Origin: Gammaproteobacteria bacterium
GTDB lineage: Bacteria; Pseudomonadota; Gammaproteobacteria; Chromatiales; Chromatiaceae
Direction: 5' to 3'
Assembly (NCBI GenBank): GCA_030065815.1
Contig: JASJCU010000012.1
Span: 1-61,859 of the forward strand
DNA length: 61,859 nt
Part shown: in pieces, positions 15,608 through 39,635 of the stretch
Numbering within the stretch: the stretch's first letter is position 1
Layout: each line of letters starts with the position of its first letter
Translations under genes and position numbers: made by a program
Notes under the pieces: model-generated
What the model was told of the DNA's origin: nothing
Databases searched by the model: none
What the model saw: the letters and a program-made list of their open reading frames with translations, nothing else

Positions 15608-17512
15608 TCAGCCGCCGATCTGCGACAGGTCGCGTACCGCACCGCGTGCCGCCGACGTCGTCAGCGCCGCGTAGGCGCGCAGCGCCTGCGATACCGCGCG
15701 CTGGCGGTCGAGCGGCTTCCACGCCCGATCGCCGCGGGCCTCCATGGCCGCGCGGCGCTCGGCGAGCACGGTATCGTCAAGCACGACCCGGATCGAGCGG
15801 TTGGGAATGTCGATCTCGATGATGTCGCCTTCCTCGACCAGCCCGATCGCACCGCCCTCGGCGGCCTCCGGCGAGCAGTGGCCGATCGACAGGCCCGACG
15901 TGCCGCCGGAGAAACGGCCGTCGGTGACCAGCGCACAGGCCTTGCCGAGCCCCTTGGACTTCAGGTAGCTGGTCGGGTACAGCATCTCCTGCATGCCGGG
16001 GCCGCCCTTGGGGCCCTCGTAGCGGATGATGACGACGTCGCCCTCGTTGATCTGGTCGCCGAGGATCGCGTCGACCGCGGCATCCTGGCTCTCGTAGATG
16101 CGCGCCGGGCCGACGAAGCCGCGCAGCGTCGAGGTCGGCACGCTGGTCGTGTAGCGCAGCTGCTCGGCGTCGAACATGCTCATGTCGACACCCGCGGTCT
16201 TGACGATGCAGCCGTCCTCGGCGATGTTGCCGTACAGCACGGCGAGACCGCCGTCCTTCGAGTAGGCGTGGTCGATGTCGCGGATGCAGCCGCTCTCGCG
16301 GTCGAGGTCGAGGCCCGGCCACTGGCTGTCCTGGCTGAACGCGACCTGGGTCGGGATGCCGCCCGGGCCGGCCAGGTAGCGCACGCGCGCCTGCTCTTCC
16401 TCGCCGCGGATCACGTCCCAGGCGTCGATCGCGGCACCCATCGTCGCGCTGTGCACGGTGTGGCAGTCGCGGTGGATCAGACCGCCACGGTCGAGCTCGG
16501 CGAGGATGCCGATCACACCGCCGGCGCGGTGTACGTCTTCCATGTGGTACTGCTGGGTGGCCGGTGCGACCTTGCACAGGTTGGGCACCTTGCGGCTCAT
16601 GCGGTCGATATCGGCCATCTTGAAATCGACGCACGCCTCGTGCGCCGCGGCCAGCAGGTGCAGCACGGTGTTGGTCGAGCCACCCATCGCGATGTCCAGC
16701 GCGATCGCGTTCTCGAACGCGTCGAAGGTCGCGATGCTGCGCGGCAGGATGCTGTCGTCGTCGCGCTCGTAGTAGCGCTTGGCCAGTTCGACGACCAGCC
16801 GACCGGCCTCGAGAAACAGGTTCTTGCGCTCGGCGTGGGTCGCCAGCAGCGAGCCGTTGCCGGGCAACGACATGCCGAGCGCCTCGGTCAGGCAGTTCAT
16901 CGAGTTCGCCGTGAACATGCCCGAACACGACCCGCAGGTCGGACAGGCCGAGCGCTCGATGGCCGCGACGTCGGCGTCGCTCTCGTTCGGATCGGCGGCC
17001 GAGACCATCGCGTCGACGAGGTCGAGCTTGACATCGCCCTTGTTGGCCAGGCTGACCTTGCCGGCCTCCATCGGGCCGCCGGACACGAACACGGTCGGGA
17101 TGTTGAGGCGCATCGCCGCGTTGAGCATGCCGGGCGTGATCTTGTCGCAGTTCGAGATGCACACCAGCGCGTCGGCGCAGTGGGCGTTGACCATGTACTC
17201 GACGCTGTCGGCGATCAGATCGCGCGACGGCAGCGAGTACAGCATGCCGCCATGGCCCATCGCGATGCCGTCGTCGACCGCGATGGTGTTGAACTCCTTG
17301 GCGACGCCACCGGCCGTCTCGATCTCGCGCGCGACCAGCTGGCCGAGGTCCTTGAGATGCACGTGTCCGGGCACGAACTGGGTGAATGAATTGGCAATCG
17401 CGATGATCGGCTTGTCGAAATCGCCGTCCTTCATGCCGGTCGCGCGCCACAGGGCGCGGGCGCCGGCCATGTTGCGGCCATGGGTCGTGGTGCGCGAGCG
17501 ATACTGGGGCAT
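15608..17512 (-). CDS. ilvD: Dihydroxy-acid dehydratase
   Basis: 634 residues, slightly longer than E. coli IlvD (616). Iron-sulfur cysteines are visible in [11 protein letters not shown] (Cys122) and in the [17 protein letters not shown] block near residues 190-205, along with the conserved SGGPMEAGK and GRFSGGTSG segments. It makes 2-ketoisovalerate and 2-keto-3-methylvalerate in branched-chain amino-acid synthesis and is oxygen-sensitive. ATG 17512 is chosen for GGAG about 8 nt upstream and for the family opening [19 protein letters not shown]. No other ilv gene is nearby. It diverges from a TetR gene. Confidence 0.96.
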
Positions 17513-32404: not shown

Positions 32405-33405
32405 GCGCGCACAGGTAACAGCCGATCAGGCCATTGGTCGGACTGTCGTGGCTATCGACGGCGACAGCGGCGTCGAGTGCGTCGAGGCTGTGCTTGGCTG
32501 GCTGCCTGCACAGCTCGACACCCCACCGGTCGAAGGCATGACGCTACACATCGCGCCCTGGCCGAGACCCCAGTGCGCGTAGCGCGCGATCAGCGACGAC
32601 GGTGAGTAGCGCCCGCCGACTCGGTCCGACATCTCGAACACGTTGTCGTGCGCGATCGCGAACCACACGGACGTACTGACGTTCGCGGTCACCGCGACCA
32701 GCTGACGCGGCAGCTGGGACTCGTCTTCGAGCTTGCGCGACTGCCAGGCCCCGCCGTCTCGGCGTTGACCCTCGTGTCCTGGATCGCGAAGCTGCGCGAC
32801 GCGATGATCCGCAGCGGCGTTTCCGGCTCGAGCGCCTCTACGGTGTCGATGGTGTGGTCCTCGTCGATGTACGACAGGCAATGGATATTCGGAACGTGGA
32901 TCGCACACGGCCACCATGTCTCGGTCGCCATCGGCGGTCCGGGATTCGACCCGCCGAGGCCGCTGCCGAAGGCATCGGTGATCGCTTGCGTGCCGGCGCC
33001 GAGCCACTGCCGCATCCGGACCGTCTCGGCGAGGTGTTGGACGCGTTCGGGCTCGCTGCGCACCTCGCGGATCACATCGACGCCGTCGACGAGCACCGCT
33101 TCGTCACCCGGATGGCGCAGCGCAACATGCGGCACCGCACCGGTTCGGGGTGTTAGCTGCCGTCGCCGGCGAACAGGCGTTCATGCGAAGCGTCGACATC
33201 GCGCAGGTATGCGCGGTCGAGCAGCGGGCGCACGATCTCGTCGGTGATGCGGTCTTTCGCGAAATCGAACAGGATGTCGGCAAGCTGCAGCGCGCCAAGC
33301 GGTAGGCGCGTGGGCGCACCGTTCACTGCACATGCAAATCGCGAATCGCGAATCGCGAATCGCGAATCGCGGCATGGTGGCGCGCCAGCGCGGCCCATGC
33401 ACTGT
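32405..33405 (-). pseudogene. pgi: Glucose-6-phosphate isomerase pseudogene
   Basis: Pieces of Pgi appear in order on the minus strand but in different frames. N-terminus SAWAALARHHAAIRD at about 33358-33403, a 7-base repeat run inside it (33337-33371), then LADILFDFAKDRITDEI (about 33235-33290) ending in a TAA at 33153-33155; then PHVALRHPGDEAVLVDG and the Pgi signature region FGSGLGGSNPGPPMATE (about 32690-33135); then QLVAVTANVS and VGGRYS (about 32590-32705); then the C-terminal FDRWGVEL (32511-32534) and SHDSPTNGLI (32422-32454). About 200 residues between VGGRYS and FDRWGVEL are missing. At least three frameshifts, one stop and one large deletion make a working enzyme impossible. It lies head-to-head with gnd. 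Confidence 0.88.
33337..33371. repeat. Heptanucleotide tandem repeat, unit AATCGCG, inside the pgi pseudogene
   Basis: Five perfect AATCGCG units (35 bases). On the minus strand they fall where the pgi relic reads HHAAIRD before the run and RDLHVQ after it. The ancestral text would need about two units, so three units (21 bases, seven codons, in frame) look added. Confidence 0.95.
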
Positions 33406-33677
33406 CTCTTACGGTCGGCGGACACAGTCCATCGACGCATGGCCGGTTGCTGGGTACGGACTGCAATTCCCGCGCCGCTGTCGGGGCGCGCTCGCCGTCG
33501 TGTGACGCACCTCAAGCGTGCAGCGGCGTGCGACAAACCCGGGCAAGATGTGCCAAAGTTGGGCGCGCGCGCCGGGCCGCGGCGCGGCTGCGATCAGGAA
33601 ACGGCTGCGCGCACGATTTTTGCAGTCAACCGGGGGAGCGCCCACAGGGTCGACGGGCGCCAACGACAGGATCCGAC

Positions 33678-35117
33678 ATGCCATCCGATATCGCCGTCTA
33701 TGGCCTCGGCGTCATGGGGCGTAACATCGCGCTGAACCTCGCCGACCATGGCCTCGACGTGGCCGTGTACAATCGCACCGCGCGCCGCACCGAGGCCTTT
33801 GTCGCCGGGCTGCCGGCGGACAGCGGCATTACCGCACACTACGACCTCGCGGCCCTGTGTGCGGCGCTGCGCAAGCCGCGCGTCGTCTTCGTCATGGCGA
33901 CCGCCGGCGGCGTCGTCGACAGCGTGATCGATGCCCTGCTGCCGCTGCTCGAGCGCGGCGATATCGTCATCGACGGCGGCAACTCGCACTTCCCCGACAC
34001 CCAGCGGCGCTGGCAGGCACTGCGCGACCGCGGCATCCGCTTCATCGGCATGGGCATCTCCGGCGGCGAGGAAGGCGCCCGCCACGGGCCGTCGATCATG
34101 CCCGGCGGCGATGCCGACGCCTGGCCCCACGTGCGCGACATGTTCCGCCGCATCGCGGCCAAGGCCGACGACGGCGAGCCATGCTGCCGCTGGGTCGGCG
34201 ACGGCGGCGCCGGGCACTACGTCAAGATGATCCACAACGGCATCGAGTACGGCGACATGCAGCTGATCGCCGAGGCGTGGCAGCTGATGCGCGACGGGCT
34301 CGGCATGTCCAGCGATGCGATCGCCGACACGTTCGCCGCATGGAACGGTGGCGTGCTGGCGTCGTACCTGGTCGAGATCACGGCGGCGATCCTGCGGGTG
34401 CGCGACAGCGACGGCACGCCGCGGGTCGAACGCATCGCCGACCGCGCCGGACAGAAGGGCACCGGGCGCTGGACCGCGATCGACGCACTCCAGGTCGGCG
34501 TGCCGTTGACGCTGATCGGCGAGGCGGTGTTCGCGCGCACATTGTCGTCGATGAAAGAAGAACGCACGGCCCTGGCCGACCGACTGGGCACTCCCCCGAT
34601 CGCCGCCGCAGGCGCGGATGCAACGATGCTCGACGCGATCCGCGACGCGCTGTACGCCGCCAAGATCATCTCGTATACGCAGGGTTTCCTGCAGATGCGC
34701 GTCGCCGCGGCCGAGTACGGCTGGCGACTCGACTACGGCAGCATCGCGCTGCTCTGGCGTGCCGGCTGCATCATCCGCAGCCGCTTCCTCGACGACATCA
34801 AGCAGGCCTTCGACCGCGATCCGCAGCTGCCCAGCCTGCCATTCGACGGTTTCTTCGCCGCGGCACTGCGCGACGCCGACGCCGGCTGGCGCCGCGCCGT
34901 GACGCTTGCGGTGCAGTGCGGCATCCCGACTCCGGCGATGAGCGCGGCGCTGAGCTTCCATGACGGCTACCGCAGCGCGGTGCTGCCGGCCAACCTGCTG
35001 CAGGCACAGCGCGACTACTTCGGTGCGCACACCTATCAGCGGATCGACCGGCCGGCCGACAGCCACTGGCACACCCTGTGGAGCGGCGACCTGAGCGAGG
35101 TGAGGACCGATGACTGA
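33678..35117 (+). CDS. gnd: 6-phosphogluconate dehydrogenase, decarboxylating
   Basis: 479 residues. The NADP-binding start reads IAVYGLGVMGRNIALNLADHG with NRT after strand 2; the catalytic region has GISGGEEGARHGPSIMPGG and the HNGIEYGDMQLIAEA block; the C-terminal all-helical domain ends near HWHTLWSGDL. The enzyme converts 6-phosphogluconate to ribulose-5-phosphate with CO2 and NADPH. Length is near the family's usual 468-480. ATG 33678 gives the family N-terminus. It opens the ten-gene + strand run and overlaps zwf by 8 nt, indicating translational coupling. Confidence 0.96.
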   Translation: MPSDIAVYGLGVMGRNIALNLADHGLDVAVYNRTARRTEAFVAGLPADSGITAHYDLAALCAALRKPRVVFVMATAGGVVDSVIDALLPLLERGDIVIDGGNSHFPDTQRRWQALRDRGIRFIGMGISGGEEGARHGPSIMPGGDADAWPHVRDMFRRIAAKADDGEPCCRWVGDGGAGHYVKMIHNGIEYGDMQLIAEAWQLMRDGLGMSSDAIADTFAAWNGGVLASYLVEITAAILRVRDSDGTPRVERIADRAGQKGTGRWTAIDALQVGVPLTLIGEAVFARTLSSMKEERTALADRLGTPPIAAAGADATMLDAIRDALYAAKIISYTQGFLQMRVAAAEYGWRLDYGSIALLWRAGCIIRSRFLDDIKQAFDRDPQLPSLPFDGFFAAALRDADAGWRRAVTLAVQCGIPTPAMSAALSFHDGYRSAVLPANLLQAQRDYFGAHTYQRIDRPADSHWHTLWSGDLSEVRTDD

Positions 35118-36585
35118 GGCCTGCACGTTGATCATATTCGGGGCGACCGGCAACCTCGCCCAGCTCAAGCTGCTGCCGGCGCTGTACCACCTCGAGACCG
35201 CCGGCCTGCTGCAGCCCAAGCTGCGCATCGTCTGCTCGGGGCGGCGCGAGCTGTCGCAGGACGACTGGATCGATTACGTGAACCGGACGCTGTCCGAGTA
35301 CGCGCGCGACCCGCTGTCGGCCGCGCATTGCGAGTCGTTCTGCGGTCGCATGCACTACCTCCGCGGCGATCTCGACGACGCGCAGACCTTTCGCGACCTC
35401 GGCGCGCTGCTCGACGGCCGCGATTATCCGGACAACCACGTCTACTACGTGTCGCTGCCACCGGCGACCTACGGCGGCATCGTCGAGTCGCTGGATGCCG
35501 AGGGCATGCTCGAAGAGAACGGCGCCTGGCGGCGAGTGGTGATCGAGAAGCCGTTCGGTTCGAGCCTGGAGAGCGCACAGAACCTGCAGCGCAAGATCAA
35601 CCGCCACCTGCGCGAGGACCAGACCTACCGCATCGATCATTACATGGGCAAGGCCATGGTGCAGAACGTGCTGGTATCGCGCTTCGCCAACCTGATGCTC
35701 GAACCGCTGTGGAACCGCAACTACATCGACCACGTGCAGATCACGCGCACCGAGCAGCTCGGCGTCGGCAATCGCGCCGGCTTCTACGAGGGCACCGGCG
35801 CGCTGCGCGACATGCTGCAGAGCCACCTGATGCAGATGATGTCGCTGGTCGCGATGGAACCGCCGGTGTCGATGGACGCCGACGACCTGCGCGACGAGAA
35901 GGTCAAGGTGCTCAAATCGGTACGCCCGATCCACCCCGCCGCGGTACAGGCGCAGGCCTATCGCGCGCAGTACGGCGGCGGCAAGATCGATGGCACCGAC
36001 GTGCCCGGCTATCTCGACGAGCCGGGCGTCGCGCCGACCAGCGTCACCGAGACCTACGCGGCGCTCAAGCTGTACGTCGACAACTGGCGCTGGCGCGACG
36101 TGCCCTTCTACCTGCGCACCGGCAAGCGCATGGCCGAGGCACGCACGATGGTCGCGATCTGCTTCAAGCAGCCACCGAAGCACTTCTTCCGCAGCGCGCA
36201 CATCGACTGGCCGCCACCGAACTGGTTGATCATGAGCATCGCCCCCGAGGAATCGCTGCGTCTGGAGATCTCGGTCAAGCAGCCGGGGCTGGAGATGAAG
36301 ACGCGGCAGATCAGCCTCGACGCGCCGTTCCGCTGTGAGCACCATGCACAGACAGAGGCCTACGAAGACCTGCTGCTCGACGTCATCGAGGGCGACCGCT
36401 CGCTGTTCCTGCGCTACGACGAGGTCGAATGGGCTTGGCGCATCGTCGACCCGGTGCTCGGCGTATGGGCCAGCGAACGCGACTTCATTCCGACCTACCC
36501 GGCCGGCGAATGGGAGCCGCAGGAGGTCAGCCGCATCTTCAACAAGGAGCATCATCACTGGCGCCAACTGGTGGATCCGGAATGA
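35110..36585 (+). CDS. zwf: Glucose-6-phosphate 1-dehydrogenase
   Basis: 491 residues. Dinucleotide-binding IIFGATGNLAQLKLLPALY (8-26; the more common text is GASGDL), the substrate/catalytic segment RIDHYMGK (174-181) and EKPFGSSLESA (about 146-156) are all present. It oxidises glucose-6-phosphate to 6-phosphogluconolactone, the entry to the oxidative pentose phosphate pathway. The start overlaps the gnd stop (ATGACTGA) and the stop overlaps the pgl start, so the three are one coupled unit. Confidence 0.96.
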   Translation: MTEACTLIIFGATGNLAQLKLLPALYHLETAGLLQPKLRIVCSGRRELSQDDWIDYVNRTLSEYARDPLSAAHCESFCGRMHYLRGDLDDAQTFRDLGALLDGRDYPDNHVYYVSLPPATYGGIVESLDAEGMLEENGAWRRVVIEKPFGSSLESAQNLQRKINRHLREDQTYRIDHYMGKAMVQNVLVSRFANLMLEPLWNRNYIDHVQITRTEQLGVGNRAGFYEGTGALRDMLQSHLMQMMSLVAMEPPVSMDADDLRDEKVKVLKSVRPIHPAAVQAQAYRAQYGGGKIDGTDVPGYLDEPGVAPTSVTETYAALKLYVDNWRWRDVPFYLRTGKRMAEARTMVAICFKQPPKHFFRSAHIDWPPPNWLIMSIAPEESLRLEISVKQPGLEMKTRQISLDAPFRCEHHAQTEAYEDLLLDVIEGDRSLFLRYDEVEWAWRIVDPVLGVWASERDFIPTYPAGEWEPQEVSRIFNKEHHHWRQLVDPE

Positions 36586-37295
36586 GCGCGCAGTGGCAGC
36601 TCGAGCCCGACGCCGCCAGCGTCGCCGATACCGCGTGCCGACTGATCGGCATGGCCGCGCGCGACGCGATCGCCGCGCGCGGCCGCTTTCATCTCGTGCT
36701 GGCCGGCGGCAGCACGCCGCAGGCCACCTACCAGCGCCTCGCCAACAGCGACCAGGATTTCAAACGCTGGTCGCTCTACTACGGCGACGAGCGCTGCCTG
36801 ACCGCCGACGATCCGGCACGCAACAGCCGGATGGTGATCGAGACCGGGCTGGCGAGTCGCGCCGGCAAGCACTACCCGATACCGACCGAACTCGGCGCCA
36901 AGGCCGCCGCCAGCAAGTACCGCCAACGCATCAAGTCGGCAATGCCGTTCGACATGGTGCTGCTCGGCGTCGGCGAAGACGGTCACACCGCAAGCCTGTT
37001 CCCCGGCCAGCGCTGGCCGGATAAGACGGTGTTCGCGGTCAGCGACGCGCCAAAGCCGCCGGCCGAGCGCGTCTCGCTCGGCGTCAAGGCATTGCAGGAC
37101 TGCCATGCGATGTTGATCATGGTCACCGGAGACAACAAGATTGCCGCAGTGCAGCAATGGCGCGCCGGCGCCGACCTGCCGATCTCCCGGGTCAGCGCAG
37201 TGCCGCAGGCGCGCGTGCTCGCCGACAGAAACTGCGTGGTGTTTGCCGATGGTCAAGCCGACGCCGCGGCGGAGCCGATAGAGTCGCCCCGATGA
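36582..37295 (+). CDS. pgl: 6-phosphogluconolactonase
   Basis: 237 residues, DevB/SOL type. Visible blocks: FHLVLAGGSTPQATYQRLA, the WSLYYGDERCLTADDP segment and MVLLGVGEDGHTASLFPG, which hold the phosphate- and lactone-binding residues. It hydrolyses the Zwf product to 6-phosphogluconate for Gnd. Its ATG overlaps the zwf stop and its own stop overlaps the glk start. Confidence 0.96.
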   Translation: MSAQWQLEPDAASVADTACRLIGMAARDAIAARGRFHLVLAGGSTPQATYQRLANSDQDFKRWSLYYGDERCLTADDPARNSRMVIETGLASRAGKHYPIPTELGAKAAASKYRQRIKSAMPFDMVLLGVGEDGHTASLFPGQRWPDKTVFAVSDAPKPPAERVSLGVKALQDCHAMLIMVTGDNKIAAVQQWRAGADLPISRVSAVPQARVLADRNCVVFADGQADAAAEPIESPR

Positions 37296-38248
37296 TGTCA
37301 CTGGCAGCAGACATTGGCGGAACCTACAGCCGGCTTGCGTGGTTCGGCGAGGGGTTTAGCGGCCACGCCACCGAGCAGGTCTTCAGCAACCGCGAATTCG
37401 CCGCGCTCGAGGACGTCATCGAAGCGGGTCGCCAGGCACTCGGCGACGCGAGCGCGGCGATCGCCGACATGGTGCTGGCGCTGCCGGGGCCGGTCCATCG
37501 CGATCCCGTCGAACTGACGAACATCAACTGGCGGCTGCGACGCGACGGGTTGTGCGAGCGTTTCGACACCCAACGGCTGACCCTGGTCAACGATTTTCAG
37601 GCCGCCGCGCTCGGCGCGATCAACGAACCGTACGAGGACCTCAAGGTGCTCAACCCGGCGACGCCGGACGAGGGCCCGGTGGTCGTCGCCGGCGCCGGCA
37701 CCGGGCTGGGCATGGCGTGGCTGGCACAGCGTGATCAGCCCGGACTGCCGCACGCCACCGAGGGCGGGCACATCGATTTCGCGCCGCTCGACGCGCGCCA
37801 GCTGGCACTGCACCAAGAACTCGCCGAGCGCTACGGTCACGTGTCCTACGAACGCGTGCTCAGCGGTGACGGCCTCGTCGACACCTACCGCCACATCGGC
37901 GGGGCCGGCGCAGCGGCCGCGTCACCGGCCGCGATCGCCGGCCGCGCGCGCGCCGGAGACCGCCACGCCGGCGACGCCATCGCGCTGTTCGTCGCGGTGT
38001 TCGCGGCCTACGCCGGCAACCTGGCCCTGGCCTTCAACCCCCTCGGCGGTATTTACCTTTGCGGCGGACTTACGGCGCATCTGGCCGAGTGGTTCGACCC
38101 GACGTCGTTCGCGCTGGACTACGCCAGAAAAGGACGCATGGCCGATGTCGTCCGCCGCGTCCCCGTCTATCTCGTGCAACGTCAAGGCACCGGGCTGGCC
38201 GGCGTCGTGCACATTGCACGCGCCCAGAGGCTCTCGCGATGGGCATGA
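37292..38248 (+). CDS. glk: Glucokinase
   Basis: 318 residues, Glk (bacterial group A) family as in E. coli (321). ATP-phosphate loop LAADIGGTYSRLAW near the start, the glucose-binding NDFQAAALG and TEGGHIDFAP segments, and GGIYLCGGLTAHL. It phosphorylates free glucose, such as that released by MalQ or GH57 activity on glycogen, and feeds Zwf directly. The ATG overlaps the pgl stop (ATGATG). An 87-nt gap then separates it from glgC, possibly with an internal promoter. Confidence 0.95.
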   Translation: MMSLAADIGGTYSRLAWFGEGFSGHATEQVFSNREFAALEDVIEAGRQALGDASAAIADMVLALPGPVHRDPVELTNINWRLRRDGLCERFDTQRLTLVNDFQAAALGAINEPYEDLKVLNPATPDEGPVVVAGAGTGLGMAWLAQRDQPGLPHATEGGHIDFAPLDARQLALHQELAERYGHVSYERVLSGDGLVDTYRHIGGAGAAAASPAAIAGRARAGDRHAGDAIALFVAVFAAYAGNLALAFNPLGGIYLCGGLTAHLAEWFDPTSFALDYARKGRMADVVRRVPVYLVQRQGTGLAGVVHIARAQRLSRWA

Positions 38249-38336: not shown

Positions 38337-39635
38337 ATGACAAGCAGCAAAGAGCAGCACCATTTGTACAAGTACTACGTGGAACCGCACGCGGTCAGCG
38401 ACATGACCCGGCGCACGCTGGTGCTGGTGTTGGCCGGCGGCGAAGGGTCGCGTCTGAAGAACCTGACCAAGTGGCGGGCCAAGCCTGCAGTGCCGTTCGG
38501 CGGCAAATATCGCATTATCGATTTCGCGCTGTCCAACTGCATCAACTCCGGCCTGCGCCGGATCGGCGTCTTGACACAGTACAAGTCGCACTCGCTGATT
38601 CGCCATCTGCAGCGCGCATGGGGCTTCATGCGGCCGGAGATCGGCGAATTCGTCGAGATCATCCCGGCACAGCAGCGTCTCAGACCGGAGTGGTACCAGG
38701 GCACCGCCGATGCGATCTACCAGAATCTCGACATCATCTACCGCCATGAGCCGGACTATGTGCTGGTGCTCGGCGGCGATCACATCTACACGATGGACTA
38801 CGCGCAGATGCTCGCCGCCCATGTGCAGGCCGCCGCCGACATGACGGTCGGCTGCATCGAGGTGCCGATCGACGATGCCAGGGACTTCGGCGTCATGTCG
38901 GTCGACGAAAAGTTGCGAATCACGCGCTTCACCGAGAAACCCGTGCACCCGGAGCCGGTGCCCGGCAAGTCGGATGTCGCGTTGGCGTCGATGGGTATCT
39001 ACATCTTCTCGATGGAGTTCCTGACCAAGGCGCTGATCCACGATGCCGAGGACGAGACGTCGCAGCACGACTTCGGCAAGAACATCATCCCCAATGCGAT
39101 CGAGAACGCGAAATCGATCGCCTACCCCTACGTCAACAATCGCGGTGAACCGGCGTACTGGCGGGACGTCGGCTCGCTGTACTCGTACTGGAAGGCGAAC
39201 ATCGAGCTGTGCGACATCGAACCCGAACTGAATCTCTACGAACGCGACTGGCCGATCTGGACCTACCAGACACAGAGCCCGCCGGCCAAGTTCGCATTCG
39301 ACGACGAAGGCCGCCGCGGCCAGGCGATCGACTCGCTGGTCGCCGGCGGGTGCATCATCTCCGGTGCCAAGGTCAAGCGCTCGGTGATCTTTTTCAACAC
39401 CCAGGTGGAGACCGGCACCTACATCAAGGAGAGCGTGATCCTGCCGAAGACGCGCGTCGGCAGCAATTGTGTCCTGCAGCGCTGTATCGTCGACAAGGGG
39501 ACGGTCATCCCGGACGGTTTCGAAGTCGGCGTCGACATCGATGAAGACCGCAAACGCTTCCTGGTCACCGACGAGGGCATCGTGCTGGTCACTCCCGGCA
39601 TGATGAACCAGCGATTGCACTACGAACGGGACTGA
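38337..39635 (+). CDS. glgC: Glucose-1-phosphate adenylyltransferase
   Basis: 432 residues. The N-terminal nucleotidyltransferase domain has LVLAGGEGSRLKNLTKWRAK (nucleotide loop) and KPAVPFGGKYRIIDFALSN, followed by GTADAIYQNL and LVLGGDHIYTMDY. The left-handed beta-helix (about 310-432) carries the ISGAKVKRSV repeats. It makes ADP-glucose, the committed and allosterically regulated step of glycogen synthesis. AGGA lies about 8 nt before ATG 38337. GH57 starts 4 nt after the stop. Confidence 0.96.
   Translation: MTSSKEQHHLYKYYVEPHAVSDMTRRTLVLVLAGGEGSRLKNLTKWRAKPAVPFGGKYRIIDFALSNCINSGLRRIGVLTQYKSHSLIRHLQRAWGFMRPEIGEFVEIIPAQQRLRPEWYQGTADAIYQNLDIIYRHEPDYVLVLGGDHIYTMDYAQMLAAHVQAAADMTVGCIEVPIDDARDFGVMSVDEKLRITRFTEKPVHPEPVPGKSDVALASMGIYIFSMEFLTKALIHDAEDETSQHDFGKNIIPNAIENAKSIAYPYVNNRGEPAYWRDVGSLYSYWKANIELCDIEPELNLYERDWPIWTYQTQSPPAKFAFDDEGRRGQAIDSLVAGGCIISGAKVKRSVIFFNTQVETGTYIKESVILPKTRVGSNCVLQRCIVDKGTVIPDGFEVGVDIDEDRKRFLVTDEGIVLVTPGMMNQRLHYERD

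Follow-up and report, generated by a model that had tools for sequence, protein, structure and literature searches.

A broken gene for glucose-6-phosphate isomerase (Pgi) is present in the window, the whole 61,859-nt stretch of Chromatiaceae DNA analysed here. It lies head-to-head with a run of pentose phosphate and glycogen genes. The feature is very probably (probability roughly 0.93) a pseudogene of a redundant isozyme, termed pgi2, and represents an ordinary gene loss caught midway, with another gene, pgi1, covering the exchange between fructose-6-phosphate (F6P) and glucose-6-phosphate (G6P). The pgi2 copy is decayed and its substitutions have a neutral codon-position pattern; it groups with pgi2 genes found at the same place in relatives, and the same genome carries an intact pgi1.

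Anatomy of the remnant and its neighbours

A search of the minus strand with the PF00342 profile yields four collinear Pgi fragments within positions 32424–33266, with the frame shifting between pieces (Table 1). The ordered fragments match the glucose-6-phosphate isomerase family (PF00342/NF001211), for which solved structures are available (3hjb, 3nbu, 1iat). The initial annotation had described ordered Pgi pieces, read in changing frames and interrupted by a stop codon, and both points are borne out by the profile search and by alignment to the pgi2 of a relative, genome G006; the stop is a TAA read at 33155–33153.

Table 1. Positions in the window of the psi-pgi2 remnant and adjoining genes
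Feature	Positions	Strand	Basis
psi-pgi2 fragment 1	33159..33266	-	G006 pgi2 residues 49–83, 51% identity; PF00342 profile 1–36, E 0.245
In-frame TAA, end of fragment 1	33153..33155	-	sequence; stop-to-stop frame 33153–33593
psi-pgi2 fragment 2	32752..33138	-	G006 pgi2 residues 92–220, 57% identity; PF00342 profile 44–171, E 2.2e-24
psi-pgi2 fragment 3, other frame	32588..32749	-	G006 pgi2 residues 222–275, 54%; PF00342 profile 174–226 at 32588–32746, E 1.4e-5
psi-pgi2 fragment 4, after deletion	32424..32540	-	G006 pgi2 residues 501–539, 56%; PF00342 profile 449–486 at 32424–32537, E 1.1e-4
7-bp repeat, five perfect copies	33337..33371	-	TRF; roughly at the expected N-terminus of psi-pgi2
gnd, intact, head-to-head with psi-pgi2	33678..35117	+	TIGR00873, 683 bits
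zwf, intact	35110..36585	+	TIGR00871, 580 bits
pgl, intact	36582..37295	+	PF01182
glk, intact	37289..38248	+	PF02685
glgC, intact	38403..39635	+	open frame; 91% identity to G004 glgC

Three of the fragments score 86.5, 24.5 and 22.4 bits with PF00342 and the remaining one 11.3 bits, so that fragment 1 alone is under the curated cut-off of 22 bits. A further PF00342 search gave fragment 1 an E-value of 0.024, and both of its E-values miss this cut-off.

Compared with intact members of the Pgi family, the window copy is without the N-terminus and a central segment, its frames are shifted and it has an internal stop; no single open frame spans the PF00342 domain. The frame changes three times: near 33140–33150, near 32750, and across the deletion. 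Residues 276–500 (G006 pgi2 numbering) are absent; a loss had been proposed correctly, but its size is nearer 225 codons than the 200 first estimated. The start codon and the first ~48 residues are not recognisable in the alignment to G006 pgi2. The exact three-copy pattern of the 7-bp repeat in this region was searched for in the organism's own genome and has no match outside the repeat itself.

The catalytic residues of Pgi are presumably the Glu of MESNGK, the His of QHxF and the Lys of ELGKQLA. In psi-pgi2 the first two motifs fall within the missing stretch, and the third reads ELCRQPA. Conserved loops have changed as well, SIGIGGSHLGP to GSGLGGSNPGP and SKSFTTQDT to SRSFAIQDT.

The head-to-head arrangement with gnd-zwf-pgl-glk-glgC holds as first described: the neighbouring genes are open, and for gnd, zwf, pgl and glk the expected family is matched. 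The last gene of this run is taken to be glgC, as in the initial annotation. A glycogen/alpha-glucan phosphorylase gene is also present. Elsewhere in the window, positions 15608–17413 encode dihydroxy-acid dehydratase (ilvD), not Edd; a second PF00920 match in this genome is on contig C72.

The pgi2 locus in related genomes

Searches by tblastn with the pgi2 sequences of G006 and G004 show that 11 genomes have an open pgi2 directly upstream of gnd or zwf, on the opposite strand (loci L035/L127 of G004, L125 of G006, and L039, L040, L042, L044, L046, L047, L059, L079 and L113). The named zwf scan has 80 loci, of which 22 entered the comparison; pgi2 is present at 10 of these 22, and some of the other 12 end early at contig ends. 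A comparison of relatives at this position had been recommended, and it finds pgi2 open in both G004 and G006. In G004 (L127), pgi2 is head-to-head with gnd and is open for 534 aa to the end of the contig, which terminates within the gene; evidence for a shared flank therefore comes from G006. There the far flank carries LysR and SLC13-like genes with 83–84% identity to those of the window, which places the two loci at the same genomic position. The G006 pgi2 matches NF001211 over nearly its full length. In G006 and at L047 no gnd match intervenes, and pgi2 and zwf directly face each other.

In a Pgi tree of 49 rows, the window fragments and the 11 pgi2 sequences are separated from 37 other rows with a branch support of 100/100. 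This tree was composed after a first one had been seen, with L143 and L033 added and L114, L132 and L154–L158 removed. The first tree (54 rows, several of them very long, and without the pgi1 rows L143 and L033) also separates the pseudogene and the 11 pgi2 sequences from 42 rows at 100/100. In it the nearest neighbour of the pseudogene is G004 (97/87); the branch of the pseudogene is very long (3.1), and its exact position within the pgi2 group is thus unsure. The decayed gene is judged from these sequence comparisons to be a second, distantly related pgi of the ordinary type.

The distribution of Pgi types varies. Both pgi1 and pgi2 are present in G004, G006 and G060, and pgi2 is accompanied by a third, more distant Pgi in five genomes (G062, G064, G066, G067 and G074). 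In G059, G069 and G073, genomes of unstated completeness, no Pgi besides pgi2 was found, and pgi2 is possibly the sole isomerase there. At L080 a Pgi gene instead follows zwf in the same orientation, and G012, G031, G053 and G055 have another Pgi type near zwf, on the zwf strand.

Some relatives show no pgi2 at this place. In G001 (L036) and G007 (L037), zwf-pgl-glk-glgC is present with no pgi2 match there by tblastn; their LysR and SLC13-like flank is 81–87% identical, and each genome has one Pgi. The cluster in G008 (L038) is also without pgi2, and its flank differs. At L072 (genome G071), gnd is preceded by part of the SLC13-like gene and pgi2 gives no match, but with a zwf of only 55% identity the L072 assembly is in doubt. 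In this isolate, HKST-UBA184, the gnd of L072 is 72% identical to that of the window, and a piece of zwf with 87% identity is present on contig L077.

When presence of pgi2 is placed on a zwf plus glgC tree, 4 changes are required over 19 scored rows, although weak or open inner branches leave the number and direction of changes not firm. Shuffled labels give a mean of 6.6 changes, and 11 of 500 shuffles are as low as 4. The window was counted as absent, L048 and four outgroup rows were without a call, and L059, L072 and L077 are outside the tree.

Two further observations concern broken or missing genes in relatives. In G006, a single contig that is 100% complete, a search for PF00393 (6PGD) is negative at E ≤ 0.1. 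G001 has a 22-codon gnd-like remnant ahead of zwf (L036:7851–7916, E 0.002) and elsewhere only a partial PF00393 match (profile 1–118 of 290). It seems that gnd has likewise been lost in some members of the genus. Another relative (G021:C47, L133) has a Pgi broken into five segments, two with internal stops; with this assembly at 40% completeness and 2170 contigs, the split may be a sequence error.

Neutral decay and the intact pgi1

Substitutions private to the window copy, counted across 218 codons, fall 44, 38 and 30 times on the first, second and third codon position, and codon-position bias is lost. Those unique to G004 are 4, 9 and 37, and those unique to G006 are 11, 6 and 41. Amino acid changes private to the window copy affect 77 of the 218 residues, versus 6 in G004. 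The dN/dS of psi-pgi2 is 0.41 to G004 (218 codons) and 0.31 to G006 (257 codons), and that between the G004 and G006 pgi2 genes is 0.08 in the same columns. Between the window genome and G004 the values are 0.12 for zwf, 0.23 for gnd, 0.05 for glgC and 0.17 for pgi1; the adjoining zwf and gnd differ from those of G004 chiefly at third positions. The even spread of the unique changes points to neutral drift and not to sequencing error. The decay of pgi2 is, on this pattern, considered real and not recent.

A search of the whole genome for another isomerase, as the initial annotation had advised, finds an intact ordinary pgi1 on contig C168 (G000:C168:19521–20993). It encodes 548 aa and scores 719 bits with PF00342 and 829 bits with NCBIfam NF001211, which it matches along almost its whole length. 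Residues 8–543 align with the solved Pgi 3hjb, and MESNGK, QHSF and ELGKQLA are all kept. At E ≤ 10, PF00342 has no match in the genome beyond the four window fragments and pgi1 (a 557-aa frame). Neither the cupin-type Pgi (PF06560), which had been put forward as a second isomerase, nor the bifunctional type (PF10432) has a match in this genome at E ≤ 0.001, and replacement by either was rejected. In the 54-row tree it shares a 100/100 clade with the pgi1 genes of G061, G063 and seven congeners, which argues against C168 being a stray contig. The genome is a single draft (172 contigs, 2.57% contamination; one genome per species), and the lesions and the belonging of C168 to the same cell depend on that draft.

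RuBisCO is found in the genome, so the premise of an autotroph is reasonable. Because pgi1 is intact, the metabolic gap feared earlier is not seen, and no finding here indicates that glycogen or Zwf is severed from the Calvin cycle. The part of the first interpretation that stands is the decay together with another pgi as the second isomerase.

Explanations of the decay and its significance

A genome without any working Pgi, in which G6P would come solely from imported or stored sugar, is very improbable. The loss of the central stretch from psi-pgi2 and the presence of glk and of the phosphorylase gene agree with such a scheme, and the initial annotation had offered it; the full-length pgi1, grouping with the pgi1 of the genus, speaks against it, and a genome lacking Pgi was rejected on the PF00342 match to this gene. 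Even less credit can be given to the idea that pgi2 is intact and looks broken through faulty assembly or sequencing. The sequence is a 172-contig draft and frame changes are among the lesions, but an error would not agree with unique changes spread evenly over the codon positions, with the many altered residues, or with a zwf and gnd that differ mainly at third positions; the codon-position pattern and dN/dS led to its rejection.

It is equally hard to credit that the frame over fragment 2 is retained to encode a truncated protein that has taken on a new function. This fragment sits in an open 163-aa frame (32689–33180) that is free of stops, and its dN/dS to G004 (0.33) is below those of fragments 1 and 3 (0.57 and 0.58). 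The values to G006, however, are 0.36, 0.42 and 0.30 (fragments 2, 1 and 3, in that order), so that fragment 2 is not distinct; the unique changes are neutral in pattern over the three fragments, and the conserved loops are altered.

The loss of a redundant pgi2 would have proceeded as follows. A second ordinary-type isomerase gene, placed head-to-head with gnd or zwf as in several relatives, would have coexisted with pgi1, the type found across the family. The latter, presumably expressed and sufficient, would cover the F6P/G6P exchange. Selection on pgi2 would then have lapsed, redundancy allowing its loss, and the unselected gene would have collected frameshifts, a stop, a large deletion and neutral substitutions.

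A broader proposal is that pgi2 is a dedicated isozyme directing F6P into the gnd-zwf-glycogen branch. Its loss in several members of the lineage, and likewise the loss of gnd in other members, would then signal that carbon flow has been rewired between glycogen, the oxidative pentose phosphate pathway and other routes. This is unlikely, though less so than the alternatives above.

Among the publications listed in a literature search, none points to this pgi2 pseudogene. A second pgi (pgi_2) with a patchy distribution is described in Gloeobacterales, where it was gained by transfer; the main text of that report has no word starting with “pseudogen” (PMC13237429). The two cases are alike, on that account, in having two pgi types distributed patchily in one lineage (PMC13237429). 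They differ in that the Gloeobacterales genes are transfer gains and the copy here is in mid-decay (PMC13237429).

The locus gives reason for caution, since a broken pathway gene is no proof of a metabolic gap until the rest of the genome has been checked. At one place in close relatives an isozyme gene is open, half decayed or absent, and this makes it useful for the study of how duplicate genes of central metabolism are lost.
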